The notes under the pieces are model-generated. The model was not told the origin of the DNA. It searched no databases and saw only the letters and a list, made by a program, of their open reading frames with translations. DNA of 21,704 nt, taken from positions 1 through 21,704 of IMG/VR virus record IMGVR_UViG_3300046808_001357; one strand, 5' to 3'. Positions 147 to 20,278 of the stretch are shown here, one piece after another; position 1 is the stretch's first letter; each line of letters begins with the position of its first letter. A program made the position numbers and the translations under genes. The DNA is from a virus.

Positions 147-2801
147 TTAAACGTATTGAGGAATTTGAGCGCTTGGTTCGCCAGTCACTTGCTTTGCTCC
201 ATTGACTATCTTAACGCTATAATTTCTCTTCTCAGTTAATCCAGTTAACGTAAGAGTACGAACAGTGTTAGTATCTCCACCAGAATCATTTTTAGATGTA
301 AATGGTGATCCATTAACATATACTGTTGAAGATGTTTGGAGAGCTCCTGCAACCGATCCAAGTGTGTAAGAAACGGTCATTGTGCCGTTTGTGCATTGGC
401 CTTTAGTTCCAACGCAAGGCCGTGCTGGAGCTGCTGGAGTTAATGCAACAATTCTTGGATTAACCGGAGGAGGAATCGGAACAGCTGTTGGAAGAGGTGG
501 GAACGGAAGTGCCGTCACTGCCACATCAAAGCTTCTTCCTGCTGCATTAAACTTAAATCCAAACCAACCGAGACCTGGACGGGCCCATTGTACTCTTTCT
601 GCAAGTTGTCCTGGAGTTCTTCTCTTCATGCGAGCAGTCCACGTAACAGACTCTGTTCTGTAAAGACCTGTACCAGGGAAGAATAGTTCTCCTTGAAGAG
701 GGGTAGCTGGATCAAAATCTGCAATTCCAACGTTCGATAACGTATAAGGAATTCTTTGAACTCCTGCTGGCAAGTTTCTGCCTGTTACTGTTATTGTAAC
801 GAGATCTCCCTCTGTTACAGAAGCTGTGCCAGAGATTACATAATCTGCTGCTGGTGGTGGTGGCGGCTCTGGAGGAGCCTTGTCATAAATTCTGATTGTT
901 TTAGATGCAGTTTTGGATTCAGCGTCATCAACTGTGAATTTAAAGTCTTCGTAACCACCTTTTTTCTTGTCTTTGTTTTTAGCAAACTGAAATGTCCAGA
1001 TGTCCCGATATTCTCTTCCACCAACGGAGTTGAATACACCAGGTTTTGCTGCAAGATTTAATACGCCGCTCAACTTAGCAGGCACTGTGCCGTTGATTCT
1101 GTTGAAGTCTGCTAAATTAATGCCATTACCTGATACTGTCCAGTTAGCGTTTCTGTTACTAGAAATTTGTCCGCCGCCTACGCGATCGATCGTAAACGTT
1201 ACTGTTTCTCCTTCTCCAGCAGAAGCGGGACCATCAATTATGTACTGAACAGGAGGAGGATTATCAAAGATATCAATTTGTTTGCTTACCACAGGAGCAT
1301 CAGAAGGAGTGAAAGTAAGAGTAATTGTTTCTTTGCCTCCATTTCTCTTATCTTTGTTTTTGCTGAAGTCGATGGTAAATCTTGCTGAATAGTTATAACC
1401 TCCGTTAGAATTAACTGTGGTATCTATAGGAACTAACCGAACAATTCCACTTAAGCCCGCTGGTTTGACATCGTTGATTTCTCTGAAATCAGAAAGATTG
1501 ATTCCAGGACCTGAAATTGACCAAGGAATATCTATATGAGCTACTCTGGTATTCGTATTGATCTTCTTGAGCGTTTGTGTTAACATAACAGCTTCAATTG
1601 TATCATTGCGGCCGTCGAGTGAATAATAGACAGGTTCAGGTTTGTCAAACACTTTAACATTGTGGTTGATCACTTCTGATGTTCCTGTATCAAGAGAAAA
1701 TGTAACAAGCTCAGAACCGTTAAGTGTCTTGATTTTGTTTTTACCAAACTTAAATGAAACAGTGCCGCTATAAACAAGCGGAGAAGTAGAGATACGATTT
1801 AATGAAACATTGCCATTAAGAGAAGCTGGTGCTGTCCCATTAACTAAAGTAAAGTCAGCAAGACCTAATCCAGGACCAGTTAAATTCCAAGGACGAGATA
1901 AAGACGTTCCAACATCAGTTCCGCCTTTTCTGGATACCGTCAAAGTGACTAAGTCTCCTTCTGTTACAGAAACAGGTCCAGTAACATCAAAATCAATTGG
2001 TGGAATTGGATTGTTAGGAATTGGCGTTGATGTCGGCTTTGGTGGTAATGGAGTGGATGTTGGGTTTGGAGGAATTGGTGTAGGAGTTGGGCGTGGTGGA
2101 TTTGTTGGAACAGGGGTATTTGTCGGAACCATGGTTGGGTTCGGAGCCGGAGTGTCTGATGGTCTAGGTGTATTTGTTGGAAATGGAGTCGATGGAGGAC
2201 GTGGCGTCGATGCCGGAAACGGTGTTTGTGTAGGAGGAAGAGTAGCAACAGGAGGAGCAATCGGCTGAACTACGTCTGGATTTGCAATTACAATATCTTG
2301 AGTAGCGTAAATAATATAACCTTTGCCTGGCTCAAACGTATCAAATCCGTTACCTGCATTATAAGGACGATAAGAACGTAAAAACGAATTTGAATTGTTT
2401 GGAGAATAAACTAAATTAATTTTTGCGTTATGGGCATTAATTGGCTGAGAACGAGCAAAAGGATAAATGAAAATAGTTGGCTTACCTCTTTGTGCTGTAG
2501 AATTGCCCTTAATGGTTACATTAGCTGCAGTTGATTCAGCTAATGTAGCAGCAGCGCCCGGAAGAGTGATGGTAAAGCTTCCTTTAGCTAAAGCAATATA
2601 ACTTTCATTTGGCTTAAATGTGGAAAACGTATTAATTGGACCGGGTCTGTAAGCAGTAATTCCTGTTCCAGAAGAATTAATTGTTTGGACCTCAATAAGG
2701 TACTGGTTAAATTGTTTAATGTCAACCGCAACAGTACCATTGTTCTTTAAAAAGTTAAGTTTTCCTGTTTTGGAGTCGCCTGTTATATTGATTTGTCTCA
2801 T
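147..2801 (-). CDS. Large virion surface protein with tandem Ig/Calx-beta-like domains and a Thr/Pro linker
   Basis: This 884-aa protein is modular. Residues 30-80 and 126-173 hold two copies of a short module with the motif YRP...F.TF.P...YI.YA (for example FDTFEPGKGYIIYA). Residues about 180-269 are a Pro/Thr/Asn-rich linker. Three tandem domains follow (about 270-387, 390-514, 518-641). They share an opening E(G/A)..VT.T strand, a GPGINLADF-like motif, an NG..PA.L.G turn and an F...KNK motif (GKNKIK, SKNKDK, AKNKDK). A fourth diverged copy (652-765) again starts with SVTEGDLVT but lacks KNK. The C-terminus (781-884) resembles a fibronectin-III-like fold. There is no signal peptide or membrane segment. 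The domain fold is inferred from pattern (Calx-beta or Ig-like). A head-decoration or fibre-like surface role is inferred from this architecture and the neighbours. A GATAAATA box lies 12 nt before the ATG and a strong terminator follows. Confidence 0.8.
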   Translation of the reverse strand: MRQINITGDSKTGKLNFLKNNGTVAVDIKQFNQYLIEVQTINSSGTGITAYRPGPINTFSTFKPNESYIALAKGSFTITLPGAAATLAESTAANVTIKGNSTAQRGKPTIFIYPFARSQPINAHNAKINLVYSPNNSNSFLRSYRPYNAGNGFDTFEPGKGYIIYATQDIVIANPDVVQPIAPPVATLPPTQTPFPASTPRPPSTPFPTNTPRPSDTPAPNPTMVPTNTPVPTNPPRPTPTPIPPNPTSTPLPPKPTSTPIPNNPIPPIDFDVTGPVSVTEGDLVTLTVSRKGGTDVGTSLSRPWNLTGPGLGLADFTLVNGTAPASLNGNVSLNRISTSPLVYSGTVSFKFGKNKIKTLNGSELVTFSLDTGTSEVINHNVKVFDKPEPVYYSLDGRNDTIEAVMLTQTLKKINTNTRVAHIDIPWSISGPGINLSDFREINDVKPAGLSGIVRLVPIDTTVNSNGGYNYSARFTIDFSKNKDKRNGGKETITLTFTPSDAPVVSKQIDIFDNPPPVQYIIDGPASAGEGETVTFTIDRVGGGQISSNRNANWTVSGNGINLADFNRINGTVPAKLSGVLNLAAKPGVFNSVGGREYRDIWTFQFAKNKDKKKGGYEDFKFTVDDAESKTASKTIRIYDKAPPEPPPPPAADYVISGTASVTEGDLVTITVTGRNLPAGVQRIPYTLSNVGIADFDPATPLQGELFFPGTGLYRTESVTWTARMKRRTPGQLAERVQWARPGLGWFGFKFNAAGRSFDVAVTALPFPPLPTAVPIPPPVNPRIVALTPAAPARPCVGTKGQCTNGTMTVSYTLGSVAGALQTSSTVYVNGSPFTSKNDSGGDTNTVRTLTLTGLTEKRNYSVKIVNGAKQVTGEPSAQIPQYV
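1985..2265 (-). repeat. Thr/Pro linker-coding repetitive DNA (884-aa gene)
   Basis: An imperfect short-period repeat encodes residues about 180-270, made of TPxP, NPTSTP and PTNTP units. On the plus strand it reads as GG(A/T)GTNGG-type G/T-rich DNA. The same style of repeat recurs at 3215-3330 and 19984-20106. Confidence 0.75.
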
Positions 2802-2813
2802 AGGTTGTATTAT

Positions 2814-2821
2814 TATTTATC
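2814..2821 (-). promoter_or_regulatory. T4-like late promoter box (GATAAATA)
   Basis: Minus-strand GATAAATA, 12 nt before the ATG of the 884-aa gene; it differs from T4 TATAAATA only at the first base. By T4 geometry (last base at -6) the transcript would have a leader of about 7 nt. Confidence 0.65.
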
Positions 2822-2860
2822 AAATTGGTTTTAAATTTTTATTTGTTGTTTCACTACTTA

Positions 2861-3484
2861 CTACACTTCGATAGCAGAAACGGCCTCATATGTTCCGGTT
2901 TCATAATAAACGTCGCCGTTAAACAAGAAACCTTCAAATTCTAAGTCTGTGTCTGGGTATATGTTTGTAACATACCCGTACGTTAAGCCGATTCTGCCGT
3001 TATCAAATTGAACAACAGCTCTTGGTTCAGTATCAACGTGTATTATTAATTGTCTTAACACAGGAGCTCCGGTGAGAGTAACCATGTTTGCTGGCTCATA
3101 ATAAAATTTATCTCCAGAAATTAATCCGGCGTATGTAAGATCTAGATAGCTCTGATCAACCGGTTCTCCGTCAGCTAATGTTGCAGTAAAATAGCTTGAA
3201 TACTCAATAGAAGGAGGAGTCGGAGTTAAAGTTGGAACTATAGGAGTAGACGTCGGAGCTACAGGAGTCGGCGTTGGACCAACTATTGGAGTTGCTGTTG
3301 GTGTTGGAAGTATAGCTGTAGGAGTAGGAGTAACAATCCACGGAGCTCTCCATCCTCGTTCAGCACAAAATGACGTTAATGATTGAACGATTGTGTATAA
3401 AGAACTTACCTCAGAAAAATTTTCATTTATCTTGGTTCTAATATCATAGAGCTGTTCTCCGTTATTTAAAATTCGCATTGACAT
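2861..3484 (-). CDS. Virion/tail-associated protein with INENF-type N-terminus and Thr/Pro linker
   Basis: This 207-aa protein has three parts. Residues 1-45 contain IRTKINENFSEV, an IxxxINxNFxxV pattern common at the N-termini of phage tail-fibre and tail-associated proteins and also seen in the tail-fibre gene at 16838 (SAINSNFSQI). Residues about 52-91 are a TPTPTA-type repeat linker. Residues about 94-207 form a beta-rich acidic domain with two similar segments (SGDKFYYEP and NGDVYYETGTYE). I do not recognise the C-terminal domain. The N-terminus suggests a virion anchor carrying an exposed C-terminal domain; this is inference. Two ATGs lie at 3484 and 3478; the first is chosen because it gives the longer frame. 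An AATAAATA box is 6 nt upstream, there is no Shine-Dalgarno sequence, and the previous minus gene ends 19 nt upstream. Confidence 0.75.
   Translation of the reverse strand: MSMRILNNGEQLYDIRTKINENFSEVSSLYTIVQSLTSFCAERGWRAPWIVTPTPTAILPTPTATPIVGPTPTPVAPTSTPIVPTLTPTPPSIEYSSYFTATLADGEPVDQSYLDLTYAGLISGDKFYYEPANMVTLTGAPVLRQLIIHVDTEPRAVVQFDNGRIGLTYGYVTNIYPDTDLEFEGFLFNGDVYYETGTYEAVSAIEV
3215..3330 (-). repeat. Thr/Pro linker-coding repetitive DNA (207-aa gene)
   Basis: Imperfect tandem units encode TPTPTA, PTATP and TPTPVAPTST segments. The sequence on the plus strand (GGAGTNGGNGTNGG type) is close to that at 19984-20106. Confidence 0.75.
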
Positions 3485-3490
3485 ATTTTA

Positions 3491-3498
3491 TATTTATT
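3491..3498 (-). promoter_or_regulatory. T4-like late promoter box (AATAAATA)
   Basis: Minus-strand AATAAATA, 6 nt before the ATG at 3484, in the short gap after the 96-aa gene. T4 geometry would start the RNA about 1 nt before the ATG. Confidence 0.55.
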
Positions 3499-3503
3499 TG
3501 ACT

Positions 3504-3794
3504 TTACGTTTCTGACCAAATTAAAAAATCTCGCCAGTAGCTTGAATAATCTGACCAAGTTCCTTGAAATTGAGATTCATTCCATGTCAGCTCATCGTAC
3601 CACGCTCGAGAGTCGTCCCATCTAGTTCCAAAAGGCAGAGGGGTCGGAGTGGGGCCTGGCACAGGCGTTGGGAATTTCGAAAAGTCAGGGCCAGGTCTTC
3701 TTTGAGAAGCTGATGAAGAGACTCCTGCTCCACCAGCTCGTTGCAAACGCGTGACTCGCTTTCTTAATTTGTAATTGATTTGAAAACGGCCCAT
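3504..3794 (-). CDS. Small virion-type protein with Pro/Thr linker and a Trp-rich repeat
   Basis: This 96-aa protein begins with a basic segment (KLRKRVTRLQ, residues 9-18). A short FPTPVPGPTPTPLP linker covers residues 41-54. The C-terminus is rich in Trp, Tyr and Asp and looks like two copies of one unit (about 57-74 and 79-96): TRWDDSRAWYDELTWNES followed by GTWSDYSSYWRDFLIWSE. The Pro/Thr linker is the same style as in its two minus-strand neighbours, which supports a shared structural context. I do not recognise the family. An exact TATAAATA lies 15 nt before the ATG. The gene is divergent from the plus-strand gene at 3873. Confidence 0.7.
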   Translation of the reverse strand: MGRFQINYKLRKRVTRLQRAGGAGVSSSASQRRPGPDFSKFPTPVPGPTPTPLPFGTRWDDSRAWYDELTWNESQFQGTWSDYSSYWRDFLIWSET

Positions 3795-3809
3795 ATATAG
3801 TGTATATGC

Positions 3810-3817
3810 TATTTATA
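3810..3817 (-). promoter_or_regulatory. T4-like late promoter box (exact TATAAATA)
   Basis: Minus-strand TATAAATA identical to the T4 late consensus, 15 nt before the ATG at 3794. It sits in the 78-bp divergent intergenic region that also holds a plus-strand GATAAATA at 3858. Confidence 0.75.
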
Positions 3818-3857
3818 GGTAGAAATAAAATATTTTTTAGAAATTGTTTTGGATTTT

Positions 3858-3865
3858 GATAAATA
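3858..3865 (+). promoter_or_regulatory. T4-like late promoter box (GATAAATA)
   Basis: GATAAATA ending 7 nt before the ATG at 3873, divergent from the minus-strand box at 3810-3817. The expected leader under T4 geometry is about 2 nt. Confidence 0.6.
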
Positions 3866-3872
3866 AGATTTA

Positions 3873-4412
3873 ATGAGTAACTTTGATACATTGTTTGAAA
3901 AAGAGCTTGAAAGATTTCAGCAAGGCGGAATCATAGTCGGCGATCGCGTTCGTTTTAAAAAGGATGCATTAAAACTAGACTACATTGCTTCAAGAGCACG
4001 ATCTTATCAAGAGATTATCAAAGCTTGCATGGAGCCAAGCTTTGATTTAAATTTGAGAGTGGGAGCCGTTAAATCGATTTATCCTACATCTGCTACTAAT
4101 TTTCAAGCAGGCAATGCTGCTCCGGACGGGGTATTCTTAGATATCTATATTGAATATGCTCCAGGACTTTTCCGCAATCCAATGACTGTCCCGTTTGAAG
4201 CTGTGGACGTAATTGATGACGGAAACGAAAGAGGACCTATCCCAGACAGCTTCCGTCGCAAAAACAAAATTCACGGTCCAGAAGAAGTTAAAGCTGAGAC
4301 CGACAACACTGAGTCAAATATTAATTTGACCAACAAAAACGTTCAACTGCCAGGAGCAAACAAGTGGGATGACACCCAACCTGGTGGCGGAAATTTTAAA
4401 CCAAAACGCTAA
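3873..4412 (+). CDS. Unassigned phage protein, 179 aa
   Basis: I do not recognise the family. The first 120 or so residues look folded: an N-terminal helix (DTLFEKELERF), then GGIIVGDRVRFKKDALKLDY, which resembles the first strands of a small SH3-like beta barrel, and later a DGVFLDIYIEYAPG strand region. The last 50 residues are polar and low in hydrophobics (PDSFRRKN, ETDNTESN, QPGGGNFKPKR), probably a disordered tail. There are no signal peptide, membrane segments or enzymatic motifs. A GATAAATA box 7 nt before the ATG suggests late expression, unlike the RNR genes downstream, so it may be a virion or assembly component; that is inference. No terminator is visible before the next ORF. Confidence 0.75.
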   Translation: MSNFDTLFEKELERFQQGGIIVGDRVRFKKDALKLDYIASRARSYQEIIKACMEPSFDLNLRVGAVKSIYPTSATNFQAGNAAPDGVFLDIYIEYAPGLFRNPMTVPFEAVDVIDDGNERGPIPDSFRRKNKIHGPEEVKAETDNTESNINLTNKNVQLPGANKWDDTQPGGGNFKPKR

Positions 4413-4463
4413 AAATAAAATTTCCTCTATGAATTCTCTGGGCGTGAACTATACTCAAAAATA

Positions 4464-4652
4464 ATGAAGACTCTGTATTACAAATGCTTAGTTGTCTTTT
4501 TTTATTACACAGGAGATGTTGTGTGCAGATTTAATTTCAACAGCGCATTTGAACTTTATCAAAAATGTATGTCTCTATCCTTGTCTTTTGATGATAAGAT
4601 AGGAAACTGGTGGTGGAAAGAACCGTCTCCACTAAACAAAACAAATTTATGA
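4464..4652 (+). CDS. Small hypothetical protein overlapping nrdB by ATGA
   Basis: This is a 62-aa frame. Its TGA (4650-4652) overlaps the nrdB ATG (4649-4651) as ATGA, a typical translational-coupling arrangement. The peptide has a hydrophobic start (YYKCLVVFFYYTGDVVCRF), a polar middle and a WWWKEP motif near the end. I do not recognise it. It could be a small cytoplasmic phage protein; the single hydrophobic stretch contains charged and polar residues and is a poor membrane anchor. There is no Shine-Dalgarno sequence or late box. A TATACT hexamer at 4450-4455 could be a -10 element but has no convincing -35. Support is the overlap, plus the fact that without it almost 200 bp would be empty in a tightly packed genome. 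Confidence 0.55.
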   Translation: MKTLYYKCLVVFFYYTGDVVCRFNFNSAFELYQKCMSLSLSFDDKIGNWWWKEPSPLNKTNL

Positions 4653-5641
4653 AAACCTTAACTCGACCAAAAATATTCGACGAACAAATTGCTAGAAAAC
4701 CAGACTATTATCCGTGGGCTCAGGAATTTTCTCATGCTATTCATTCGGGGTTTTGGACGGATAGAGAATTTAACTTTAAATCAGACGTACAGCAATTTAA
4801 AGTTAATCTGACAGACCAAGAAAGAGAAATCATTGTGCGCACTCTTTCAGCTATTGGTCAAATTGAGATTGCAGTTAAGAAATTTTGGGCCCAATTAGGA
4901 AACAATCTCAAACACCCATCACTAGCCGACTTAGGATACGTCATGGCTAATACAGAAGTTATCCACAACAATGCATACGAAAGATTACTCGAAGTGCTTG
5001 GACTCGAGGAAGTCTTTGAAGAGAATCTTAAACTAGAGTGGATCCAAGGTAGAGTAAATTACCTACAAAAATACAACCACAAGTATTATAAAGATTCAAA
5101 AAAACAATACCTATATGCGATCATTTTGTTCACTTTGTTTGTCGAAAACGTCTCATTGTTTTCACAATTTTATGTTATCAACTGGTTTGCTCGATTTAAG
5201 AATGTTCTTAAAGACACTGACCAACAAGTTAAATACACAAGAAACGAAGAAAACCTTCATGCGTTAATTGGCATGAAGATTATCAACACTGTTAGAGAAG
5301 AATATCCAGAGCTGTTTGATGAAGAATTAGAAGAAAAAATTCATCATGAAGCAAAAGAAGCTTACGAAGCAGAAGCTAAAATTGTTGACTGGATGGTTAA
5401 TGGCATTCAACAAGACGGATTAACAGCACAGATTCTTAAAGAGTTTATTAAAAACAGAATTAATGAATCGCTCAAACAAATTAAATTTAAACCAGTTTTT
5501 GATGTTGATAAAGAATTATTAAAGGCTACAGTATGGTTTGATGAAGAACTACTCGGAAACAACCAAACTGACTTTTTTCATAGTCGACCAGTTGATTACT
5601 CAAAAAAATCACAATCGTTTGACGAAGAAGACCTTTTTTAA
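4649..5641 (+). CDS. nrdB: Class I ribonucleotide reductase small (radical) subunit NrdB
   Basis: Ferritin-like R2 subunit, 330 aa. It carries the diiron centre and tyrosyl radical that NrdA uses to reduce ribonucleotides to deoxyribonucleotides. By alignment to E. coli R2 from memory, the metal ligands are all visible: D46 (in FKSD), E103 and H106 (in TEVIHNNAY), E166 (in FVENVSLF), and E201 and H204 (in NEENLH). The radical tyrosine is Y110 and the radical-path Trp is probably W36 (SGFW). The acidic C-terminus (FDEEDLF) fits the tail that docks on NrdA. There is no N-terminal ATP-cone. The start is placed at ATG 4649 because it overlaps the upstream TGA; an in-frame GTG at 4610, with AGGA at 4601-4604, would add 13 residues and cannot be excluded. 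It precedes a 75-aa gene and nrdA, and there is no late box, consistent with early or middle expression. Confidence 0.95.
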   Translation: MKTLTRPKIFDEQIARKPDYYPWAQEFSHAIHSGFWTDREFNFKSDVQQFKVNLTDQEREIIVRTLSAIGQIEIAVKKFWAQLGNNLKHPSLADLGYVMANTEVIHNNAYERLLEVLGLEEVFEENLKLEWIQGRVNYLQKYNHKYYKDSKKQYLYAIILFTLFVENVSLFSQFYVINWFARFKNVLKDTDQQVKYTRNEENLHALIGMKIINTVREEYPELFDEELEEKIHHEAKEAYEAEAKIVDWMVNGIQQDGLTAQILKEFIKNRINESLKQIKFKPVFDVDKELLKATVWFDEELLGNNQTDFFHSRPVDYSKKSQSFDEEDLF

Positions 5642-5644
5642 TCT

Positions 5645-5872
5645 ATGACAGTTAAAGAGTTAATCGACCGTCTTTCAGTAGAAGACCATCACATGCGCGT
5701 TGTAGTACAAGGATATGAAACCGGCTATGACGAGCTTGAAAAAATTCGCTTCGTGCAAATAAGTCCCAATCTTAGTAAGGAAGAAAAAAAATGGGAAGGG
5801 GAATTCGATGAAGCTGCTCTCGTAACAGAAGACACAGAAGTGGCTTTGTGTTTTTTTAGAAAATCTTATTAA
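5645..5872 (+). CDS. Small conserved-type hypothetical protein between nrdB and nrdA
   Basis: This 75-aa protein starts 3 nt after the nrdB stop, and nrdA starts 1 nt after its own stop, so all three should be read from one transcript. The N-terminal helix (TVKELIDRLS), followed by a beta strand and a VVVQGYETGYDELEKI motif, resembles small hypothetical proteins of the kind '.VKELI..L........VVV.GYE.GYDD' that I recall from phages and bacteria; I know of no assigned function. The middle is highly charged (KEEKKWEGEFDE). No Shine-Dalgarno sequence is visible, so translation may be coupled to nrdB. Confidence 0.75.
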   Translation: MTVKELIDRLSVEDHHMRVVVQGYETGYDELEKIRFVQISPNLSKEEKKWEGEFDEAALVTEDTEVALCFFRKSY

Positions 5873-5873
5873 T

Positions 5874-7532
5874 ATGACAAAAGACAATTATTACTGGCTC
5901 AATAAAGATTCACGCAAATTTCTAGAGCGTGGATATTTATTAGAGGAAGAAACAGCGGAACAGCGAATTGAAGATATAGCACAGACTGCTGAAAATTATC
6001 TTAAGCTTCCAGGGTTTGCTAAAAAGTTTACAGATTATATGGCTTTGGGGTTCTATTCTCTTTCTTCTCCAATTTGGTCTAATTTCGGAAGAAAGCGTGG
6101 TCTTCCCATTTCTTGTTTTGGTTCGTATATTTCCGATACCATGGAATCTATTCTGCATAAAGTTGCAGAAGTAGGTATCATGACAAAACACGGAGGTGGC
6201 ACTTCTGCATATTTTGGAGACATTCGTGGAAGAGGCACTCCAATCTCTTGTGGAGGAGAGTCAACCGGTTCCGTTCATTTCATGGAACTGTATAACAAAC
6301 TGATGAATGTGGTTTCTCAGGGAAACGTCCGTCGAGGCTCTTTTGCAGCTTACCTGCCAATTGATCATAAAGATATCGAAGAATTTTTGCAAATCCGCTC
6401 TGACGGACACGACATTCAAGAAATGTCTTTTGCTGTATGTGTTTCTGACCAATGGATGAAAGAAATGGTGGATGGAGACAAATCAAAACGTAAAATTTGG
6501 TCCAAGGTTATTCAAAAACGTTTTGAGACGGGCTATCCATATGTATTGTTTTCTGATACAGTCAATAACAATGCTCCTCAAATTTACAAAGACAAAGGAA
6601 TGAAAATTCACAATTCGAATCTTTGTAGCGAGATTGCATTGTCTAATGATGAAGAAGAGTCATTTGTGTGTGACCTTTCGTCGCTGAATCTCGAACGATG
6701 GGATGCTATTAAAGATACTGATGCTGTAGAGACATTAGTCTACTTTCTTGATGCTGTAATGAGCGAGTTTATTATCAAGACCGAGGGAATGCAATTCATG
6801 GAGGCTCCGAGAAAGTTTGCGATAAACCAACGAGCTCTCGGAGTAGGAGTTCTCGGATGGCATTCACTTCTCCAATCCAAGATGATTGCTTTTGAGTCAT
6901 TTGATGCGAAGCTATTAAATGCTGATATATGGAAGACAATTAGACATAGAGCAGATGCTGCAACAACAGAATTAGCTAAACTATTTGGCAAAGCTCCAAT
7001 CTATAAGGATTCGAAAGAAGAAAGAAGAAACGTAACCACGCTCGCTGTAGCTCCTACAACTTCGTCTAGTTTTATCCTTGGCCAAGTATCCCAATCGATT
7101 GAGCCTCTTAATTCAAATTACTACGTTAAAGATCTTGCAAAAGGCAAATTTACATACAAGAACCCTTATCTTAAACAGCTCCTCAAAGATAAAGATAAAG
7201 ATGAAGAAGAAACATGGAAGTCGGTTCTTGAGCACGGAGGATCTGTACAGCATCTTAATTTTCTTTCCGAAGAAGAAAAAGACGTATTTAAAACGTTTGC
7301 TGAAATTTCTCAGAAAGAAATCGTCATTCAAGCAGCACAGCGTCAAAAGTACATTGATCAATCACAGAGTCTTAATGTCATGGTTCCGCATGACGCTAAA
7401 CCAAAAGAAGTCAATGAGCTTTTAATTTTTGGTTGGGAACAAGGAATTAAAACTTTTTATTACCAACGTAGTTCGAACCCTGCTCAAAAGCTAGCTCGAA
7501 CGTTGATGAATTGCAAGTCTTGTGAAGCGTAA
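5874..7532 (+). CDS. nrdA: Class I ribonucleotide reductase large (catalytic) subunit NrdA, short form without ATP-cone
   Basis: This 552-aa catalytic subunit reduces ribonucleoside diphosphates to deoxy forms with NrdB. Residues expected of the family are present: redox cysteine C81 (PISCFGS) with partner C266 (FVCDLSSLNL), the NLCSE active-site motif with N249, thiyl-radical C251 and E253, the Y529-Y530 radical-transfer pair (FYYQRSS), and a C-terminal thioredoxin/glutaredoxin-type pair C547/C550 (NCKSCEA). It starts directly in the catalytic region (YYWLNKDSRKFLERGYLL), so the N-terminal ATP-cone of about 750-aa enzymes such as E. coli NrdA is absent. Since NrdB has none either, overall-activity control by dATP through an ATP-cone should be missing. 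The overall sequence and CKSCEA tail resemble short NrdA proteins I associate with Bacteroidota; that affinity is from memory. The stop abuts the stop of the minus-strand gene at 7533 with no visible terminator. Confidence 0.95.
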   Translation: MTKDNYYWLNKDSRKFLERGYLLEEETAEQRIEDIAQTAENYLKLPGFAKKFTDYMALGFYSLSSPIWSNFGRKRGLPISCFGSYISDTMESILHKVAEVGIMTKHGGGTSAYFGDIRGRGTPISCGGESTGSVHFMELYNKLMNVVSQGNVRRGSFAAYLPIDHKDIEEFLQIRSDGHDIQEMSFAVCVSDQWMKEMVDGDKSKRKIWSKVIQKRFETGYPYVLFSDTVNNNAPQIYKDKGMKIHNSNLCSEIALSNDEEESFVCDLSSLNLERWDAIKDTDAVETLVYFLDAVMSEFIIKTEGMQFMEAPRKFAINQRALGVGVLGWHSLLQSKMIAFESFDAKLLNADIWKTIRHRADAATTELAKLFGKAPIYKDSKEERRNVTTLAVAPTTSSSFILGQVSQSIEPLNSNYYVKDLAKGKFTYKNPYLKQLLKDKDKDEEETWKSVLEHGGSVQHLNFLSEEEKDVFKTFAEISQKEIVIQAAQRQKYIDQSQSLNVMVPHDAKPKEVNELLIFGWEQGIKTFYYQRSSNPAQKLARTLMNCKSCEA

Positions 7533-7808
7533 TTATATTCCTGGAATAGAACCAAAGAACTGAGTACGATAAAACATATCCCCGTTAATTGTAGCACTCA
7601 ATTGATCAGAATTTGTTAATCCACGAAAAGTAAACTCCGTTCCTGCAGGCACCTCAAACCCAACAGAAGGATTTTGAAAATCAAAAATAGTGGCTGTGTG
7701 TTTTGCTCTAATGATAACTTCAGAACACTCCTGACTTTCAAGTTTAGCTTTCACTAAATTTCCTGTTAAGAAAAAAGACTTACAAATATTGCGATTGAAT
7801 TGAGCCAT
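7533..7808 (-). CDS. Small virion structural-type protein, 91 aa
   Basis: This 91-aa beta-rich protein contains ECSEVIIRAKHTATIFDF and then VGFEVPAGTEFTFRGLTNSD and a MFYRTQFFGS ending. This pattern resembles small structural proteins I recall from T4-like phages, especially cyanophages, which are usually annotated only as virion structural protein. There is no signal peptide or membrane segment. A GATAAATA box lies exactly 5 nt before the ATG, the spacing at which T4-type initiation would begin on the A of the ATG. It is a single minus-strand gene between plus-strand nrdA (stop codons abutting, TAA/TTA) and the plus-strand 71-aa gene, so it looks like an independently inserted late unit. Confidence 0.72.
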   Translation of the reverse strand: MAQFNRNICKSFFLTGNLVKAKLESQECSEVIIRAKHTATIFDFQNPSVGFEVPAGTEFTFRGLTNSDQLSATINGDMFYRTQFFGSIPGI

Positions 7809-7813
7809 GGTAT

Positions 7814-7821
7814 TATTTATC
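7814..7821 (-). promoter_or_regulatory. T4-like late promoter box (GATAAATA), leaderless spacing
   Basis: Minus-strand GATAAATA with 5 nt (ATACC) before the ATG at 7808. With the T4 late geometry, in which the octamer covers -13 to -6, +1 falls on the start codon. Confidence 0.62.
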
Positions 7822-7829
7822 TTTTGTTG

Positions 7830-7857
7830 TTGAAAACGATTTATTATCTTCTAATTA
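7830..7857 (+). promoter_or_regulatory. Possible sigma-70-type promoter for the 71-aa gene
   Basis: TTGAAA (7830-7835) and TAATTA (7852-7857) are separated by 16 bp, giving a leader of roughly 40 nt to the ATG at 7904. The gene has a Shine-Dalgarno sequence and no late octamer, so a host-type promoter is plausible. AT-rich sequence makes such matches common. Confidence 0.3.
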
Positions 7858-7864
7858 ATAACAC

Positions 7865-7882
7865 AACAATGCACACATTGTT
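7865..7882 (+). promoter_or_regulatory. Perfect inverted repeat (hairpin or operator) upstream of the 71-aa gene
   Basis: AACAATG (7865-7871) and CATTGTT (7876-7882) are perfect inverted repeats around a CACA loop, just before the Shine-Dalgarno sequence at 7886-7892. It could be an RNA hairpin in the leader, a protein operator next to the promoter, or a weak terminator-like element (followed by only four T). Which one cannot be told from sequence. Confidence 0.5.
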
Positions 7883-7903
7883 TTAGAAAGGACACACACA
7901 ACT

Positions 7904-8119
7904 ATGCCCAACAAAAATGCTTATGAAATCCGTTTGGACGTTCTCCAAATGGCTCACTCTGATGCTCAGATGAAATATTTGGAAAAGCTCAATACAATTA
8001 GAGATAATAACGGAAAAGTTACTGACTCGAATTTAATTGAAGAACTCTTTCCAAAGCCTGCTGATATTAATAAAAGAGCTGAGGAATTATATAAATTTGT
8101 CGAAAACAACGGTTTGTAA
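7904..8119 (+). CDS. Small hypothetical phage protein, 71 aa, with a Shine-Dalgarno sequence
   Basis: This 71-aa, mostly helical and charged protein begins MPNKNAYEIRLDVLQMAHSD and later has the IEELFPKPADINKRAEELYK segment. It resembles small proteins I recall from T4-like phages of marine bacteria, where the function is not known. It is the only gene in the window with a clear Shine-Dalgarno sequence (AGAAAGGA, 7885-7892, about 11 nt before the ATG). It has no late octamer and is followed by an intrinsic terminator, so it looks like a one-gene unit expressed on a different schedule from the virion genes. A perfect 7-bp inverted repeat lies in its leader. Confidence 0.8.
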   Translation: MPNKNAYEIRLDVLQMAHSDAQMKYLEKLNTIRDNNGKVTDSNLIEELFPKPADINKRAEELYKFVENNGL

Positions 8120-8133
8120 GTGAGTCGAACCCT

Positions 8134-8169
8134 AAATCCCTCTGGGCTACCAACCTGGAGGGATTTTTT
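8134..8169 (+). terminator. Intrinsic terminator after the 71-aa gene
   Basis: AAATCCCTC (8134-8142) pairs perfectly with GAGGGATTT (8158-8166) and runs into six T. It lies 15 nt after the stop of the 71-aa gene and isolates it from hsp20. Confidence 0.9.
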
Positions 8170-8194
8170 ATGTTGAAAAATATCCATTATGTTA

Positions 8195-8202
8195 GATAAA
8201 TA
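8195..8202 (+). promoter_or_regulatory. T4-like late promoter box (GATAAATA) for hsp20
   Basis: GATAAATA lies 61 nt before the hsp20 ATG and directly after the previous terminator. It is the only one of these boxes paired solely with a long leader (about 55 nt). The leader contains imperfect complementary segments (TTGT..GTGC and GCAC..ACAA, about 8206-8243). Confidence 0.55.
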
Positions 8203-8263
8203 AATTTGTCCTAGTGCACAATTACGTGGCTAGCACAAAACAATATTGATTAGAAATAATAAT

Positions 8264-8743
8264 ATGACAACATTAGCAACATACGTCCCTGGACATTTTT
8301 CGTCCACTGAGCGGGTTTATCGTCAGTTACCTGCTCTGTTTAATGATAACTGGCTCAACAACATCTTTGGAGAAGTTGATAAAGCATTTGATGTTCCAAA
8401 TGCAGTTTATCCTTATAATGTTCTTCAAGTAAGAAACACTAAAGATGAAATCCTTCAATATGAAGTTGAAGTAGCTCTTGCTGGCGTCGGCAAAGATAGT
8501 ATCGACGTCAAAGTAAGAGACGGCAAACTTCACATTGATATTAACAAAGATAAAGAAGAGGTATCAGAGACTGTAACTTACCTTAAAAAGGGCATCAGTC
8601 AAAGAAAGGGAAGCATGACCTTTAATCTCGATGAAAAGGTTAATTCCAAAAAGATTAGCTCTTCTTATAAAGACGGTCTACTTAAAATCATTATTCCGGC
8701 TGTAAAGCCAGAAACAATTGATATTGATGTTAAAGTAGAATAA
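8264..8743 (+). CDS. hsp20: Small heat-shock protein (Hsp20 / alpha-crystallin family)
   Basis: This 159-aa ATP-independent holdase chaperone would keep unfolding proteins soluble in the infected cell or assist virion assembly. It has a variable N-terminal arm (1-48), then an alpha-crystallin domain (about 49-147) starting at YPYNVLQV, with the core strands ALAGVGKDSIDVKVRDGKLHI and a late DGLLKIIIP strand matching the family's GxL-type signature. The C-terminus has an I-D-I (152-154), the I-x-I motif that joins oligomer subunits. The start is taken at ATG 8264, giving MTTLATYVP; an in-frame TTG at 8246 would add six low-complexity residues. T4-like cyanophages are known to carry hsp20 genes. 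It stands alone between two terminators with its own late-type promoter. Confidence 0.93.
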   Translation: MTTLATYVPGHFSSTERVYRQLPALFNDNWLNNIFGEVDKAFDVPNAVYPYNVLQVRNTKDEILQYEVEVALAGVGKDSIDVKVRDGKLHIDINKDKEEVSETVTYLKKGISQRKGSMTFNLDEKVNSKKISSSYKDGLLKIIIPAVKPETIDIDVKVE

Positions 8744-8760
8744 CTTAAATTCAAACCATT

Positions 8761-8793
8761 AAGAGAGGCTCTAAGAAGGGCCTCTCTTTTTTT
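8761..8793 (+). terminator. Intrinsic terminator after hsp20
   Basis: AAGAGAGGC (8761-8769) pairs perfectly with GCCTCTCTT (8780-8788) around a 10-nt loop and ends in a run of T (8787-8793). It begins 17 nt after the hsp20 stop. Confidence 0.9.
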
Positions 8794-8830
8794 GTCTCCA
8801 ATGTTTAGTGTTTGGTTTTCAGGTTTTGTT

Positions 8831-8838
8831 AATAAATA
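8831..8838 (+). promoter_or_regulatory. T4-like late promoter box (AATAAATA)
   Basis: AATAAATA, 15 nt before the ATG at 8854 and directly after the hsp20 terminator. It is the most upstream promoter of the 11-kb structural run. Confidence 0.6.
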
Positions 8839-8853
8839 ATAAGAACGCTACCC

Positions 8854-10182
8854 ATGTCCATGGATATAACTTTCGAAAATCTCACTGTCAACACCGTACC
8901 TTCTGATTATAGTTGGGACAAACAAGTCCCCAATGAGCGTACGCTAGTTCAAAGTGTATTATCAGGAAACAAATACACAGGATATGCTCCATTTGTCAGT
9001 GTTTTATTAAGTTCTTATGTAGACAATTTAAGTGGAGCAGCAATTGCGTTTATAACAACAACAGACTACGGAGATTATTACAATTCTGAGACAAACAGTC
9101 AAACGTCTTTGCTTAGCGGAAATCAAATATTTTGTCACAACTATTTGATGCCTGGAACATATACGTTAATGTACAAACGATCTCAGTATGTTTCAACGGA
9201 TATTTCAAGATGTTCAGAGGGAAGTTATAATCCTTATGATACATACATCGAAAAAGAAGAAACAAAAACAGAAAGACTTCCGTTTTCATGGATGTGGTAC
9301 AATTTTTTAAGAGACGATTACGATCCAAGAACAGAGTTTGTAGGCTCTTATGAACCCAGAAATGAATTTCTAACATGGGACGATTGTGTGTTTCAAGGTT
9401 CAAAACAGGTTACTTGGGAACAAGCTTCTGGACCTGCTATTGAAATTCGACAAGGACCTGTTTCATGGCAATGGAAAAAAATAAAAACCAAACCAGATCC
9501 GTTTGAGCTGTATACTCAAAACACTAACTGGGTGCAAACGAAACCAAATTCTTTATTTCCACGCACATGGAAACAAATTAAAGAATACAAATGCGCAAAT
9601 GATAAGACTGAATGCTTGGAATTAGTTCCTACTCTTTCTTCAACTACCTACGTACACGTACTAACATCATTTTTAGAAGTAAAAGAAATACCTCCTACTG
9701 CTTTTTTAAATGTTGTTCATAGTAAAGCTTTAAACGAGAGAACATCTCCATACAAAGTAACGTTGACCCCAAGATATATACGTTGTGGAAGTTTTCCGAT
9801 TGAGAAAATTTTATGGGATTTAGGAGACGGAACTCCTGTAATTGAAAAAACACGAGCCAATCCAAATCAAACGTATGACACGGTCATTAATTTCGTTCAT
9901 CAAAACTATTTTGACTCAGACTTTTTAGATCCTAGAAATTTTGACTTAGAGTATACCTATACGAGAACTCCTGAAACAGGCAATTGCTTTTATCCTTCTT
10001 TGACAGCGTTTGCGAGTTCTACTGGCACAATTGATTGTGCTTCCGCAATAGTTGGTCCATTAACATACCAGTCCCACGACAATTCCAAGTTTCGACTAAT
10101 TCAAAACTACTTGTCGGAAAAAGGTGTAGCCTATACAGGAGCCGTTGAAAGCTCCTTTGTATTCTGGAATAGAAATAAATAA
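8854..10182 (+). CDS. Virion structural protein with two PKD-like domains
   Basis: This 442-aa protein has two stretches with the PKD (polycystic-kidney-disease Ig-like) pattern. The first, about residues 45-113, has DYGDYYN in place of the W.FGDG turn and HNYLMPGTYTLMYKR as the final strands. The second, about 281-390, has the clear ILWDLGDGTPVI turn and the F.LEYTYTRTPETGNCF ending. Between them is a Trp-rich section (about 145-240) with FSWMWYNF, EFLTWDDC, VTWEQASGP and PVSWQWKKI. There is no signal peptide. PKD-like domains are common in phage tail and fibre proteins; a tail or baseplate-associated role is inferred from this and the neighbours. An alternative ATG lies 6 nt downstream (8860). 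The next gene starts 4 nt after the stop. Confidence 0.78.
   Translation: MSMDITFENLTVNTVPSDYSWDKQVPNERTLVQSVLSGNKYTGYAPFVSVLLSSYVDNLSGAAIAFITTTDYGDYYNSETNSQTSLLSGNQIFCHNYLMPGTYTLMYKRSQYVSTDISRCSEGSYNPYDTYIEKEETKTERLPFSWMWYNFLRDDYDPRTEFVGSYEPRNEFLTWDDCVFQGSKQVTWEQASGPAIEIRQGPVSWQWKKIKTKPDPFELYTQNTNWVQTKPNSLFPRTWKQIKEYKCANDKTECLELVPTLSSTTYVHVLTSFLEVKEIPPTAFLNVVHSKALNERTSPYKVTLTPRYIRCGSFPIEKILWDLGDGTPVIEKTRANPNQTYDTVINFVHQNYFDSDFLDPRNFDLEYTYTRTPETGNCFYPSLTAFASSTGTIDCASAIVGPLTYQSHDNSKFRLIQNYLSEKGVAYTGAVESSFVFWNRNK
10174..10181 (+). promoter_or_regulatory. T4-like late promoter box (AATAAATA) overlapping the end of the previous gene
   Basis: AATAAATA lies across the last codons and stop of the 442-aa gene and ends 5 nt (ACGTT) before the ATG at 10187, again the spacing that puts +1 on the ATG under T4 geometry. 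Confidence 0.5.
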
Positions 10183-13594: not shown

Positions 13595-13602
13595 CATAAA
13601 TA
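13595..13602 (+). promoter_or_regulatory. T4-like late promoter box (CATAAATA)
   Basis: CATAAATA, 6 nt before the ATG at 13609, in the 24-bp gap after the 830-aa gene. It is one base from the T4 consensus and predicts a leader of about 1 nt. Confidence 0.62.
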
Positions 13603-13608
13603 ATTAAA

Positions 13609-16600
13609 ATGTCACTTGAGCTGTTTGTAAATTTTGAAAGACAAAGTAATAACCAATTATTTTACAGACCAACTTCTATTAACGCTTACGCAGCAGTAGT
13701 CAAGTTGTCCAGCTCAGATCTTGACATTTTTGATCCAAGCCTTTATGTTGCAACATACACAGTAGACAACAGGCCTGAAACGCTTTCTAATTTTGATTTA
13801 TATAACGGAGTGTCTTTATCTTTTGATAGGCGTTGGCCTGTAATCCGAACCGTGCAAGTTTTATTGTCTGCAAAAGAAGGAGCAACTGAAACGGAAACAT
13901 ATACAATGTCTGCGATGTTTCTTGATAAAATTCCCTCAACTACGTTTGTTGCGTATCCTAGTAGTTACTTTGAGGATGAAACTGGAATACAACGTTTTCC
14001 GAATACCAAAAACTTTACTAAGGGACCTGGATTATATTTTTACGGAGAAGGACATACGGAAAGCATTTGTTTGTCAGCAAAAGGGGCTTCTGGGTTTACT
14101 CTTAATTGGTTTATTGGAGATAGTTCAGCCGTGTCCCAATGGCCTATAACAATTACTTCAACAAATACTGCTACTGTTAGAATATCATCAGAGCCTACTC
14201 AGGAGAAAAAAATTCCAATAAACGTAAGGCTTACGAATCAAGATATTAAATTGGACGGGCCCGTATATTATTATGATGACATAACAGGCAAGAAGACTCA
14301 CTATTCTTTTTTCGATTCTTCTGCAACACCGGACGGAACAGAGCGAACAGACAACAAATTTAAATCCCACATACACGTTAGACGTTACCCTCAAGTAGAA
14401 AACTACACTTACGTTCCAGCGTTTAGTGCTGATATAGCGGATCTCCCTTTTGATTACACTACCAAATGGTTCGAGTCTAAATTAGTAGATAAACATAATT
14501 CTCCGTTTCTTTATTACGGACTCAGCTCAACTGCTTGGCAAATTGACACAAACATCGATGGAATGTCTAGAGCAAGTAATTGGTCTTATACAACCAAGCC
14601 TTTGCCAAACATAAATGGATATCGGTTTCCTTTAAGTTATACGCCAGCTACAACGGAAAATATTCCTTACTTAAAAATTTCTTCTATAAACGATACTACC
14701 GTTACTAACACTGTATCAGCTATAAAAAAAGTACAGATTCAGAAGTTCCCATATGATTGGCAGCTAAGCACTCAAATTGAGACTTATAATAGCTCAGCTG
14801 TAATATACTCTCAACCATATATTAAATTACATTCTCCTAATTTTTTTGCTGTAAAAGAAGAAAAGAGTTATTTTGAACGCTTGCAAGTGTATGCAAAAGA
14901 TTTTTTAAAATTAGAAAAGGTCGTAATTGATTGCGACGGAAGCTTAACCACGACTCTAACTGGAGATAATTTGTACAATGAGTTTGATATAGTTTTTAAT
15001 AAATTAGGAAAACAAACGTTGTCCGCTACTTCTTTTTTCTACAATTCTAAAACAAATACCACAGACAAAGTTGTCAATGTATTTGAAAATGCAATTGAAG
15101 TTGTCAGTAGCTATGATGACAAAGCAGTGATTGATTTTTATCATACCACTAATTCAAAATTACAAACAACTCAATTGAGCGCTCCAGCTCTTTCACCAAA
15201 TGAGTGGGTAACAGAAACAAATATAAACAGCATATTTCAAGCGTTTTATGAGACGCTAGATACTATACTTGATCATACAACTTTGTATGTAAACAATAGC
15301 CTTTTCTATGGTTGGTTGGGATCTTCAAATTATAGATGGGTAGACTTAGTGAATGCTGAAAATACCACAGATAAATTGACATGGAATGACCAATTACCAA
15401 GCCAACTTGACACCAACAATAATGGGTTTCCTCTTTATTGGAATCAACAGTCCTGCGATGATGATGTCGAAAGTGATACAGTTTGTCTTCAAAAGTATTG
15501 CTTAGAATGGAAATGGTCTTCTCGTAAAAGATCTAACTCAACTTTAATCACAACATGGAGAGATACTAGAAGTACCTCTTCTTTAGCTAAAAAATGGCAG
15601 TATGAACCATGTAGCATAGATTCAACAGCGTTGATGTGTGATTTGGGGAAATGGCATATTTCCACGATCGATCTTGATTATTTTCCGTTACAGAATTGTG
15701 GATACAATAAAGACTGTTTAAACGTAGCATGCGTAGAAATGGACAATTATTTGATCGTTGCTAAGAAAACCGAATTAAACTTAATTGATAATAAATACGA
15801 TCCCAAAAAGCTTCACAGAGCAGGACTGGCTGACTCGTTGTTTGCTTTTGCTAGTATAGAAGGAATGTGCTCAGAAGGAAATAACCTTTATGTGCTAGAC
15901 TCTTTAATACCAAAAGTAACCGTATATAAAGTTAGCAACAACAAATTTACTTTAGTTAATTCGTGGGGACGTTTTGGTTTAGCTACAAATGGTTACGGAT
16001 TCAATCGACCAAAAGACATTACAATAGATCAAAACAAGTATTTGTATATAACTGATACGGGCAATAAGTGTATCAAAAAGTATACATTAGCAGGTAAACA
16101 CGTATTGACAATTAAACACTCTTCTTTTGATACAGAATCTCCTGTGAGTTGTTGCGTCGATTCTCAAGAACAAATTCATGTTTTGCTATCAACTAAGGTG
16201 GTAGTTTTAGATAAAACCGGAACGTTTGTGTTAGAATACAATCTCTCGTCCAATGTAGTTTCTCCTAAAAAAATTACCTGCAATTACAATAGAGAGCTGG
16301 TATACGTTTCTCATTTTTACGGAATAGACAAATATTTTCGAACCGGCGTGTTTTTCGATGCTTTAATAAACAAGCTCCAATGCTCAAACGGGATAGTGAT
16401 GGAACAATTTGCTGGGGTTTATCATAACCCTCAGCGAACCCTGTATATTTGTGCCAATGATAAAATTTTAAAATACGCTGATAGGATGAGATTGATTACT
16501 AGTAGGTCTCCAATATCGAAAGATCTATATTGGACCATTGATGAAATTAAAATTCATAAAGAAGAGTATATACAAACATGGGTATATCAAAAAGCATTTC

Positions 16601-16809
16601 ATCGGTTATGGGATAATATTGAATTAATTCGCAATTCTTTGCATTACAATTCCGCGTTGCATCCTGAAAGAAAAACATACTATCCGCCTACATACTCTAA
16701 AGAGGAAATAGTAATTGGGCAAAACGAAATTGTTACGAATTCTGTTATAAATAGACTCTCTGAACAGCTCTGGACTAACACCCAAACGCTGTTAAATTAT
16801 TTCAAATAA
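13609..16809 (+). CDS. Large virion structural protein with Cys/Trp-rich region and NHL-type beta-propeller
   Basis: At 1066 aa this is the longest gene in the window. Residues 1-500 are beta-rich with Ig/PKD-like stretches, for example VVIDCDGSLTTTLTGDN...LGKQTLSATSFFY at about 438-478. Residues about 555-665 are Trp-rich (YGWLGSSNYRWVDL, LTWNDQ, EWKWSS, TTWRDTR). Eight cysteines fall between 616 and 708. Residues about 745-955 carry NHL-repeat strands, clearest as NRPKDITIDQNKYLYITDTGNK and CIKKYTLAGKHVLTI, so this part is a beta-propeller. The last 110 residues are helical (EEYIQTWVYQKAFHRLWDNI). There is no signal peptide, so the protein is assembled in the cytoplasm. A tail or baseplate location is inferred from the neighbours. 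The propeller suggests a relationship with the one in the gene just upstream. Confidence 0.8.
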   Translation: MSLELFVNFERQSNNQLFYRPTSINAYAAVVKLSSSDLDIFDPSLYVATYTVDNRPETLSNFDLYNGVSLSFDRRWPVIRTVQVLLSAKEGATETETYTMSAMFLDKIPSTTFVAYPSSYFEDETGIQRFPNTKNFTKGPGLYFYGEGHTESICLSAKGASGFTLNWFIGDSSAVSQWPITITSTNTATVRISSEPTQEKKIPINVRLTNQDIKLDGPVYYYDDITGKKTHYSFFDSSATPDGTERTDNKFKSHIHVRRYPQVENYTYVPAFSADIADLPFDYTTKWFESKLVDKHNSPFLYYGLSSTAWQIDTNIDGMSRASNWSYTTKPLPNINGYRFPLSYTPATTENIPYLKISSINDTTVTNTVSAIKKVQIQKFPYDWQLSTQIETYNSSAVIYSQPYIKLHSPNFFAVKEEKSYFERLQVYAKDFLKLEKVVIDCDGSLTTTLTGDNLYNEFDIVFNKLGKQTLSATSFFYNSKTNTTDKVVNVFENAIEVVSSYDDKAVIDFYHTTNSKLQTTQLSAPALSPNEWVTETNINSIFQAFYETLDTILDHTTLYVNNSLFYGWLGSSNYRWVDLVNAENTTDKLTWNDQLPSQLDTNNNGFPLYWNQQSCDDDVESDTVCLQKYCLEWKWSSRKRSNSTLITTWRDTRSTSSLAKKWQYEPCSIDSTALMCDLGKWHISTIDLDYFPLQNCGYNKDCLNVACVEMDNYLIVAKKTELNLIDNKYDPKKLHRAGLADSLFAFASIEGMCSEGNNLYVLDSLIPKVTVYKVSNNKFTLVNSWGRFGLATNGYGFNRPKDITIDQNKYLYITDTGNKCIKKYTLAGKHVLTIKHSSFDTESPVSCCVDSQEQIHVLLSTKVVVLDKTGTFVLEYNLSSNVVSPKKITCNYNRELVYVSHFYGIDKYFRTGVFFDALINKLQCSNGIVMEQFAGVYHNPQRTLYICANDKILKYADRMRLITSRSPISKDLYWTIDEIKIHKEEYIQTWVYQKAFHRLWDNIELIRNSLHYNSALHPERKTYYPPTYSKEEIVIGQNEIVTNSVINRLSEQLWTNTQTLLNYFK
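16746..16753 (+). promoter_or_regulatory. Possible second late promoter for the tail fibre (exact TATAAATA)
   Basis: An exact TATAAATA lies inside the end of the 1066-aa gene, 84 nt before the tail-fibre ATG. The box nearer that ATG (16821) is degenerate, so this one may drive the gene with a leader of about 79 nt. It also encodes Val-Ile-Asn-Arg in frame, so it may be coincidental. Confidence 0.35.
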
Positions 16810-16820
16810 ACAGAGTAATG

Positions 16821-16828
16821 ATTAAATA
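16821..16828 (+). promoter_or_regulatory. Degenerate late promoter box (ATTAAATA)
   Basis: ATTAAATA ends 9 nt before the ATG at 16838, in the 28-bp gap after the 1066-aa gene. It deviates from TATAAATA in its first three bases. Confidence 0.4.
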
Positions 16829-19734: not shown

Positions 19735-20265
19735 TTAGATTGGCTCACAGGCACTGTTAAATGTTCCTCTAATCGATCCTGGGTCTCCAGTTGGAGTATT
19801 GCCTGTCACAGCTATTGCTTTTCTCTTTTGAGAGCCGCTTGTTATATAGAATTCCACATCGACGTCCATGTCAGGATGGTTTACTATTTCGTCTGCCCAA
19901 ATCTGAGTTGCGTCGCAAAGAGAAGTTCCTCCTGGAAAGAATGTCTCTTCGATACTATCTAACGCAAACGTAATTATGCCAGCTGGAGTTGGTGTAGGAA
20001 CTACTGGAGTTGTAGTTGGTTCAATCGGGGTTGAGGTCGGAATTACAGGAGTTGGTGTAGGAACTACAGGAGTTGATGTTGGAACTACTGGAGTTGAAGT
20101 TGGAGGAATTTCCGTTTTAAGGGCAAAATATTCGCTTAGATAATTCTTGAGATCATTTACTGTAAAACGTATTTCTGAAGTACCGTCTGAATTATATCCT
20201 ACGATGAAATCTCCATCATCTAAAGAGGGCTTTAATTCGAAATCTGGAAATTTAATATTTGCCAT
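19735..20265 (-). CDS. Virion-type protein with tail-module N-terminus and Thr/Pro linker
   Basis: 176 aa in three parts. Residues 1-50 ([20 protein letters not shown], then [14 protein letters not shown]) match the short N-terminal module of many phage tail and fibre proteins, of the DGDFIVG...RFTV.DL type. Residues 54-94 are a Thr/Pro repeat linker built from TPVVPTST-like units of 6-8 aa; the DNA is correspondingly repetitive (about 19984-20106). Residues about 96-176 form a beta-rich domain with two cysteines (C117, C173), not recognised. The layout (short anchor, TP linker, C-terminal domain) is the same as that of the 207-aa protein at 2861, so the two may be attached to the same kind of virion site. 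An AATAAATA box lies 5 nt before the ATG. Confidence 0.78.
19984..20106 (-). repeat. Thr/Pro linker-coding tandem repeat (176-aa gene)
   Basis: Tandem units, clearest on the plus strand as repeated GGAGTTG(G/A)TGT(A/T)GGAACTAC, encode TPVVPTSTP and TPVVPTPTP. It is the most regular of the TP-coding repeats in the window. Confidence 0.8.
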
Positions 20266-20270
20266 GAGTA

Positions 20271-20278
20271 TATTTATT
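20271..20278 (-). promoter_or_regulatory. T4-like late promoter box (AATAAATA), leaderless spacing
   Basis: Minus-strand AATAAATA with 5 nt (TACTC) before the ATG at 20265. It overlaps the stop codon (20277-20279) of the upstream minus-strand gene. Confidence 0.55.

Follow-up and report, generated by a model that had tools for sequence, protein, structure and literature searches.

Late-promoter-like octamers at a short, conserved distance from start codons suggest leaderless late mRNAs in an uncultured clade of T4-superfamily phages

Results

The window analysed here, by which we mean the whole stretch of DNA under study, comes from IMG/VR, is 21.7 kb long and represents a fragment of a T4-superfamily phage that is without a close relative in culture. 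It contains nrdB and nrdA (the latter encoding the ribonucleotide reductase large subunit, 5874..7532 on the plus strand, without an octamer of the kind described below), hsp20, a gene for a tail fibre and the assembly gene that goes with it, and a number of large genes of structural type, one of which (13609..16809, plus strand) encodes a 1066-aa structural-region protein that was used to find relatives. On the minus strand, four proteins (147-2801, 2861-3484, 3504-3794 and 19735-20265) have in common linkers rich in Pro and Thr (PTPTPxxPTxTP type), and by their look they may be adhesin or fibre accessories.

The octamer NATAAATA was sought and its gaps to ATG were recomputed on the window. 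At a gap of exactly 5 nt, GATAAATA at 7814..7821 (minus strand) precedes the ATG at 7808 of a 91-aa gene (7533-7808), and AATAAATA precedes both the ATG at 10187 of a 301-aa gene (octamer 10174..10181, plus strand) and the ATG at 20265 of a 176-aa gene (19735-20265; octamer 20271..20278, minus strand). At a gap of 6 nt, AATAAATA at 3491..3498 (minus strand) precedes the ATG at 3484 of a 207-aa gene (2861-3484), and CATAAATA at 13595..13602 (plus strand) precedes the ATG at 13609 of the 1066-aa gene; at a gap of 7 nt, GATAAATA at 3858..3865 (plus strand) precedes the ATG at 3873 of a 179-aa gene. It is noted that all six gaps had been claimed in a sequence-only reading of the window, together with the lack of a Shine-Dalgarno (SD) sequence in each of the six genes, and that both claims held, the best match to AAGGAGGTG being 'AAG'. 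That reading omitted the octamer genes with longer gaps, namely GATAAATA at 2814..2821 (minus strand), 12 nt from the ATG at 2801 of an 884-aa gene, TATAAATA at 3810..3817 (minus strand), 15 nt from the ATG at 3794 of a 96-aa gene, AATAAATA at 8831..8838 (plus strand), 15 nt from the ATG at 8854 of a 442-aa gene, and GATAAATA at 8195..8202 (plus strand), 61 nt upstream of the hsp20 ATG at 8264. The 8854 gene is a leadered exception, the gap being 21 and 27 in its orthologues, and the octamer before hsp20 could be either a leadered promoter or no promoter. A variant octamer, ATTAAATA at 16821..16828 (plus strand), lies 9 nt from the ATG at 16838 of the 855-aa tail-fibre gene (phrog_4492), and the remaining octamers of the window are inside genes. 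Gaps of 5-7 are present in 6 of the 9 window genes that have an octamer at most 60 nt upstream. Under a Markov null for the window the mean is 0.05 genes at these gaps, with six reached in none of 20,000 simulations, and uniform placement of the window's nine octamers gives P=2e-6 for the observed excess.

Against a phage collection, the window DNA gave zero matches and its 1066-aa and 179-aa proteins gave zero direct matches. Relatives of the 13609 gene are present in six viral contigs (L004-L009), with identities of 30-100%. One of them, L004 (IMGVR_UViG_3300051213_000997), is from a second dataset; its 1066-aa protein is 100% identical and its octamers, including that before the ATG at 20265, match those of the window. 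Another, L009 (the same as G006), carries gp22/gp23-type genes, with a T4-type major head protein (phrog_138), a scaffold (phrog_237), head closure/adaptor families and head-completion proteins. The T4-type synteny of structural genes on which membership of the T4 superfamily rests is met in this relative, and the window shares only the neighbouring structural genes. With the gp23 of L009 as the query, hundreds of uncultured relatives are found, and the identity to cultured phages is only about 33%. In the gp23 tree, the seven uncultured rows are placed together with full support, and a long branch separates them from T4, the cyanophages and the pelagiphages. A gp55-like late sigma factor (phrog_234) is encoded in three large contigs of this clade (G008, G009 and G010). 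The window fragment itself does not include gp55, and that its own phage carries the gene is an inference. The Pfam models for gp33 (PF16805) and gp45 (PF02916) detected nothing in the clade contigs, which are incomplete, the gp45 model being weak even for HTVC008M. As a separate observation, the 125-kb contig G008 has a cluster of 17 tRNA genes (110993-118257), and G007, G009 and G010 have one tRNA gene or none.

The spacing was then surveyed in the clade over 1,269 deduplicated genes, with a single gene caller for all genomes and ATG starts only, of which 285 have the octamer. The gaps of these 285 genes are 0-4 in 9, 5 in 79, 6 in 54, 7 in 33, 8 in 17, 9 in 23 and 10 in 25, followed by a tail, so that the spacing rule and its cliff at gap 5 are seen directly; gaps of 5-10, which correspond to leaders of 0-5 nt, are present in 231 of the 285 (81%). 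Note that the clade contigs are related to each other, the counts are not independent and their independence is overstated. The variant TTAAATA shows 4 genes at gaps 0-4 and 26, 27 and 16 at gaps 5, 6 and 7, ATAAGTA shows 12 at gap 5 and 11 at gap 6, and CTAAATA has the same edge at gap 5. In an unbiased de novo k-mer scan ATAAATA at gap 5 was among the strongest signals, recovered at fixed gaps, by which the resemblance of the octamer to T4's TATAAATA is also met; for the control k-mers TATTTAT and ATATAAA the peak is absent.

Conservation of the spacing in relatives, the lack of which had been named in advance as a refutation, was examined, and the spacing is kept both clade-wide and in orthologues of the window genes. 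For the 13609 gene, a late-type box is present at gap 5-6 in 6 of 7 relatives with its letters varying (gap 6 in G002, G003 and G008; TTAAATA or CTAAATA at 5-6 in G005, G006 and G011). The gaps in the family of the 3873 gene, window included, are 7, 7, 5, 6, 6 and 17; those in the 10187 family are 5, 6 and 6 (the last two in G003 and G008), and G002 has the variant CTAAATA, likewise at 6; and the gap of 5 at the 7808 gene is also present in L005 and L007. The orthologues keep both the spacing and the N-termini. Wrong start-codon calls were considered and rejected, the orthologous N-termini starting at the octamer-proximal ATG and most of the GTG cases described below having a nearby in-frame upstream stop.

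The T4 late promoter octamer lies at -13 to -6, with variants of A(-13) known (PMC2988020), and contacts are made at A-12, A-9 and A-8 (PMC7892883); the approximate placement taken from T4 in the sequence-only reading held when checked against these two papers. Since the T4 octamer spans -13 to -6, the start codon coincides with +1 when the gap is 5. At octamer+6, leadered T4-type phages have A in 52% and G in 31% (83% purine) and C in 2%; the pelagi-, methylo- and rhizophages have A in 71% and G in 16% (87% purine) and C in 0%. In the gap-5 genes of the clade a pyrimidine precedes the A of the ATG in 35 of 39 cases; in the other genes the count is 380 of 620 (Fisher p=2e-4). A pyrimidine before +1 is the usual initiator. 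The start-site register, in which +1 would lie 13 nt downstream of the octamer's first base, is in this way supported by sequence alone, through the purine in the leadered relatives and through Y-A in the gap-5 genes, with no RNA ends. GTG starts, which the ATG-only caller missed, number 21 at gap 5, 5 at gap 6 and 1 at gap 7, and TTG starts number 0 at gaps 5-7. Both the occurrence of GTG almost only at gap 5 and the exclusion of TTG are explained by a requirement for a purine at +1. In the gap-6 genes of the clade the predicted +1 is T in 63%, with A on both sides, and the exact transcription start of these genes may be displaced by one base.

The exclusion of SD sequences from these genes is also shown directly. 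In the clade, an SD is present versus absent in 5 versus 408 genes with a promoter at 5-12, and in 72 versus 836 other genes (p=9e-8). The criteria for leaderless genes of a -10-type box placed with +1 at the start codon and of no SD are both met in the window and in the clade. Among gene clusters of at least 5 members, a conserved SD is present only in gp23, the major capsid gene, which is without a close late promoter. The clade hosts can probably use SD sequences, and because gp23 keeps its SD and the hosts are probably SD-capable, the absence of SD in other clade genes is not simply a host trait. In much of the clade (e.g. G006, G007, G010 and L025), the gp22-gp23 intergenic region has a conserved element, AAGGTCGA(A/C), about 25-45 nt before gp23 begins; this element between the scaffold and capsid genes is possibly an RNA-processing or regulatory site. 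A phage-encoded IF3 was sought and not found. A gene for ribosomal protein bS21 is present in G009 (48822-48959) and G010 (84906-85037) and in HTVC008M, Mosig and Melnitz, these last being three marine phages with some gap-5 promoters, and it was not found in T4 or RHph_I1_18.

With the late-type genes of the clade removed first, a scan for sigma70-type promoters gave TATAAT boxes in 27 genes at gap 6, in 2 at gap 5 and in 1 at gap 4. When a TTGA/C -35 is required, gap 6 has 25 ATG starts and gaps 0-5 taken together have 8, and gap 6 has 5 GTG and 0 TTG starts. As the sigma70 hexamer lies at -12 to -7, a start codon at gap 6 once more coincides with +1. The effect comes mostly from the contigs G009 and G010 and is therefore a property of a sub-branch. 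By this result the claim that the arrangement belongs to a late programme has to be qualified, since in part of the clade it extends beyond late genes. In an early-type region of G010 (2000-9000), small genes stand in a run, each with TTGAC and with TATAAT 6 nt before its ATG, often as ATGATG.

For the host, a scan of genome contigs with gp23 found nothing, and a scan with NrdA gave mostly Flavobacteriales cells at 52-56%. The contig L193 (CALKOP010000137.1), of 4.4 kb, has nrdB-nrdA similar to the window's genes (NrdA 70%) and is binned in a Flavobacteriales MAG; by its look it could be a phage fragment. Sigma70-type TTGAC/TATAAT promoters, as seen in G009 and G010, are unlike Bacteroidota promoters. 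Because of this misfit a Flavobacteriales host cannot be assigned, and the host may differ within the clade.

By the measurement used for the clade, no octamers at gaps 5-7, and no peaks at the leaderless distance, are present in T4, KVP40, Syn9, P-SSM7 or DLP6, the median octamer-ATG gap being 25.5 in T4, 24 in P-SSM7, 26 in Syn9 and 30 in KVP40. The claim that the layout differs from that of T4 held, the spacing rule being absent in T4, KVP40 and the cyanophages. The clade resembles T4, with its gp55/gp33/gp45 system, in having the same octamer (with the first base free, as in the cyanophage NATAAATA), the same inferred +1 register and, in three contigs, a gp55-like sigma factor. It differs in that T4's TATAAATA octamers lie 12-52 nt before ATG, with an SD in 12 of the 13 T4 genes with a gap up to 25, whereas those of the clade lie mostly at 5-10 nt without SD, and in that gp33 and gp45 are undetected by Pfam. 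The late promoter motif NATAAATA has been described for the cyanophages S-PM2 and Syn9 (PMC2984593); the motif is the same as in the clade, but the median gap is 24-26 and none is at 5-7 in Syn9 or P-SSM7. The Pelagibacter phages HTVC008M and Mosig, the methylophage Melnitz and the Rhizobium phage RHph_I1_18 have a gap of exactly 5 at 8, 6, 3 and 3 genes, respectively, those of HTVC008M including DNA-end protector, tape measure and baseplate genes, and for each of seven HTVC008M sites checked, the independently deposited annotation has the start codon where it was predicted. These four phages, distant from the uncultured clade in the gp23 tree, differ from it by a bimodal or mixed strategy, their other octamers being mostly at least 13 nt upstream.

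In leaderless 'TA-led' bacterial genes, a box resembling a -10 element stands about 10-12 bp ahead of the start codon and an SD is lacking (Zheng et al. 2011, PMC3160421). Their box-to-start layout without SD and the logic of inference are the same as in the clade; they differ in being cellular genes read with the host sigma70, whereas here a phage late sigma and the virion programme are concerned. Leaderless initiation in phage lambda (cited in PMC3160421) is a precedent for leaderless phage mRNA, but as an isolated case versus a genome-wide layout in the clade. The T-ATG late motif of phiKZ was rejected as a precedent, its +1 being on the G (PMC7598289). A report of the present promoter layout was not found in the literature searched, which lacks most subscription papers.

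Discussion

Leaderless or near-leaderless late mRNAs made from gp55-type promoters are the best explanation of these data, and we consider it a likely one, in the absence of 5'-end, proteomic or infection data. In this explanation, the octamers would be T4-type late promoters read by the host RNA polymerase with a phage gp55-like sigma factor, and transcription would begin with the start codon's first base (gap 5) or 1-5 nt earlier (gaps 6-10). With the octamer placed at gaps 5-10, the late mRNAs would therefore be leaderless or nearly so, without a ribosome-binding site, and translation would proceed by recognition of the 5'-terminal AUG (or GUG). The internal major-capsid gene, which keeps its SD, would probably be reached by read-through. 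The actual mRNA 5' ends and leaderless translation are inferred, and the claim of the sequence-only reading that the late programme runs largely on such mRNAs is thus supported by the sequences with direct 5'-end data lacking. Against this explanation stand several window genes at gaps 9-15, which would have leaders of 4-10 nt and by which that claim is qualified; the absence of Pfam hits to gp33 and gp45 in the clade contigs and the frequent T at the predicted +1 of gap-6 genes also count against it, and it is possible that read-through from upstream genes supplies leadered copies.

Three rival explanations can be considered. The one that survives best, although we regard it as unlikely, is that the octamers are active but the genes are translated mainly from longer read-through mRNAs, the leaderless ends being minor. 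In its favour, the genes are tightly packed, and read-through probably occurs, since gp23, which has an SD, is without a promoter nearby. However, as the octamer genes are without SD, no known signal for initiation would be present on a read-through mRNA, and the window genes at 3873 and 7808 each follow an opposite-strand gene, yet have gaps of 7 and 5.

The second, which we judge very improbable, is that the A-rich box is itself a translation element, either a standby/S1-binding site or a substitute for the SD, with its closeness to the start codon reflecting ribosome geometry. This alternative had been raised in the sequence-only reading. A spacing of 5-10 nt resembles that of the SD, the octamer genes lack SD, and some bacteria are known to have AT-rich signals upstream of genes that are without one (PMC3160421). 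It is disfavoured, however, by the one-sidedness of the cliff at gap 5, by the tolerance of GTG almost only at gap 5 with TTG excluded, by the leadered T4-like phages, in which the same octamer lies 20-30 nt upstream and a purine is at +1, and by the sigma70 TATAAT with its upstream -35, which keeps to the same register once its own offset is allowed for. The strongest argument against a translation element is made by these two unrelated promoter types, each of which stands at the distance that would make its own transcripts leaderless. The third, that AT-rich intergenic DNA (genome GC about 36%) yields octamers beside ATG by chance, is all but excluded, being contradicted by the shuffle and Markov nulls and the clade survey, by the equally AT-rich T4 (35% GC) and P-SSM7 (37%), which show none, and by the control k-mers TATTTAT and ATATAAA, which are without a peak.

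Returning to leaderless late mRNAs from gp55-type promoters as the preferred explanation, a bolder reading can be made, towards which we lean only slightly. It is that the whole T4-superfamily clade runs most of its virion genes on leaderless AUG/GUG mRNAs, that one sub-branch runs part of its sigma70-driven (presumably early) programme in this way too, that a conserved SD is retained only for the major capsid gene, and that selection of the transcription start is at the same time selection of the translation start.

In textbooks, late T4-type genes exemplify strong phage expression that is driven by SD sequences in leadered mRNAs. If clade-wide leaderless virion mRNAs are true, the infection phase of highest demand can run on 5'-terminal start codons. 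The layout raises two questions, by what means host ribosomes find mRNAs of this kind and why the capsid gene should be an exception. It provides, in addition, a practical rule for locating gene starts (GTG included) and late promoters in these uncultured phages, and HTVC008M and Mosig, which grow on cultured Pelagibacter, make the leaderless layout directly testable.
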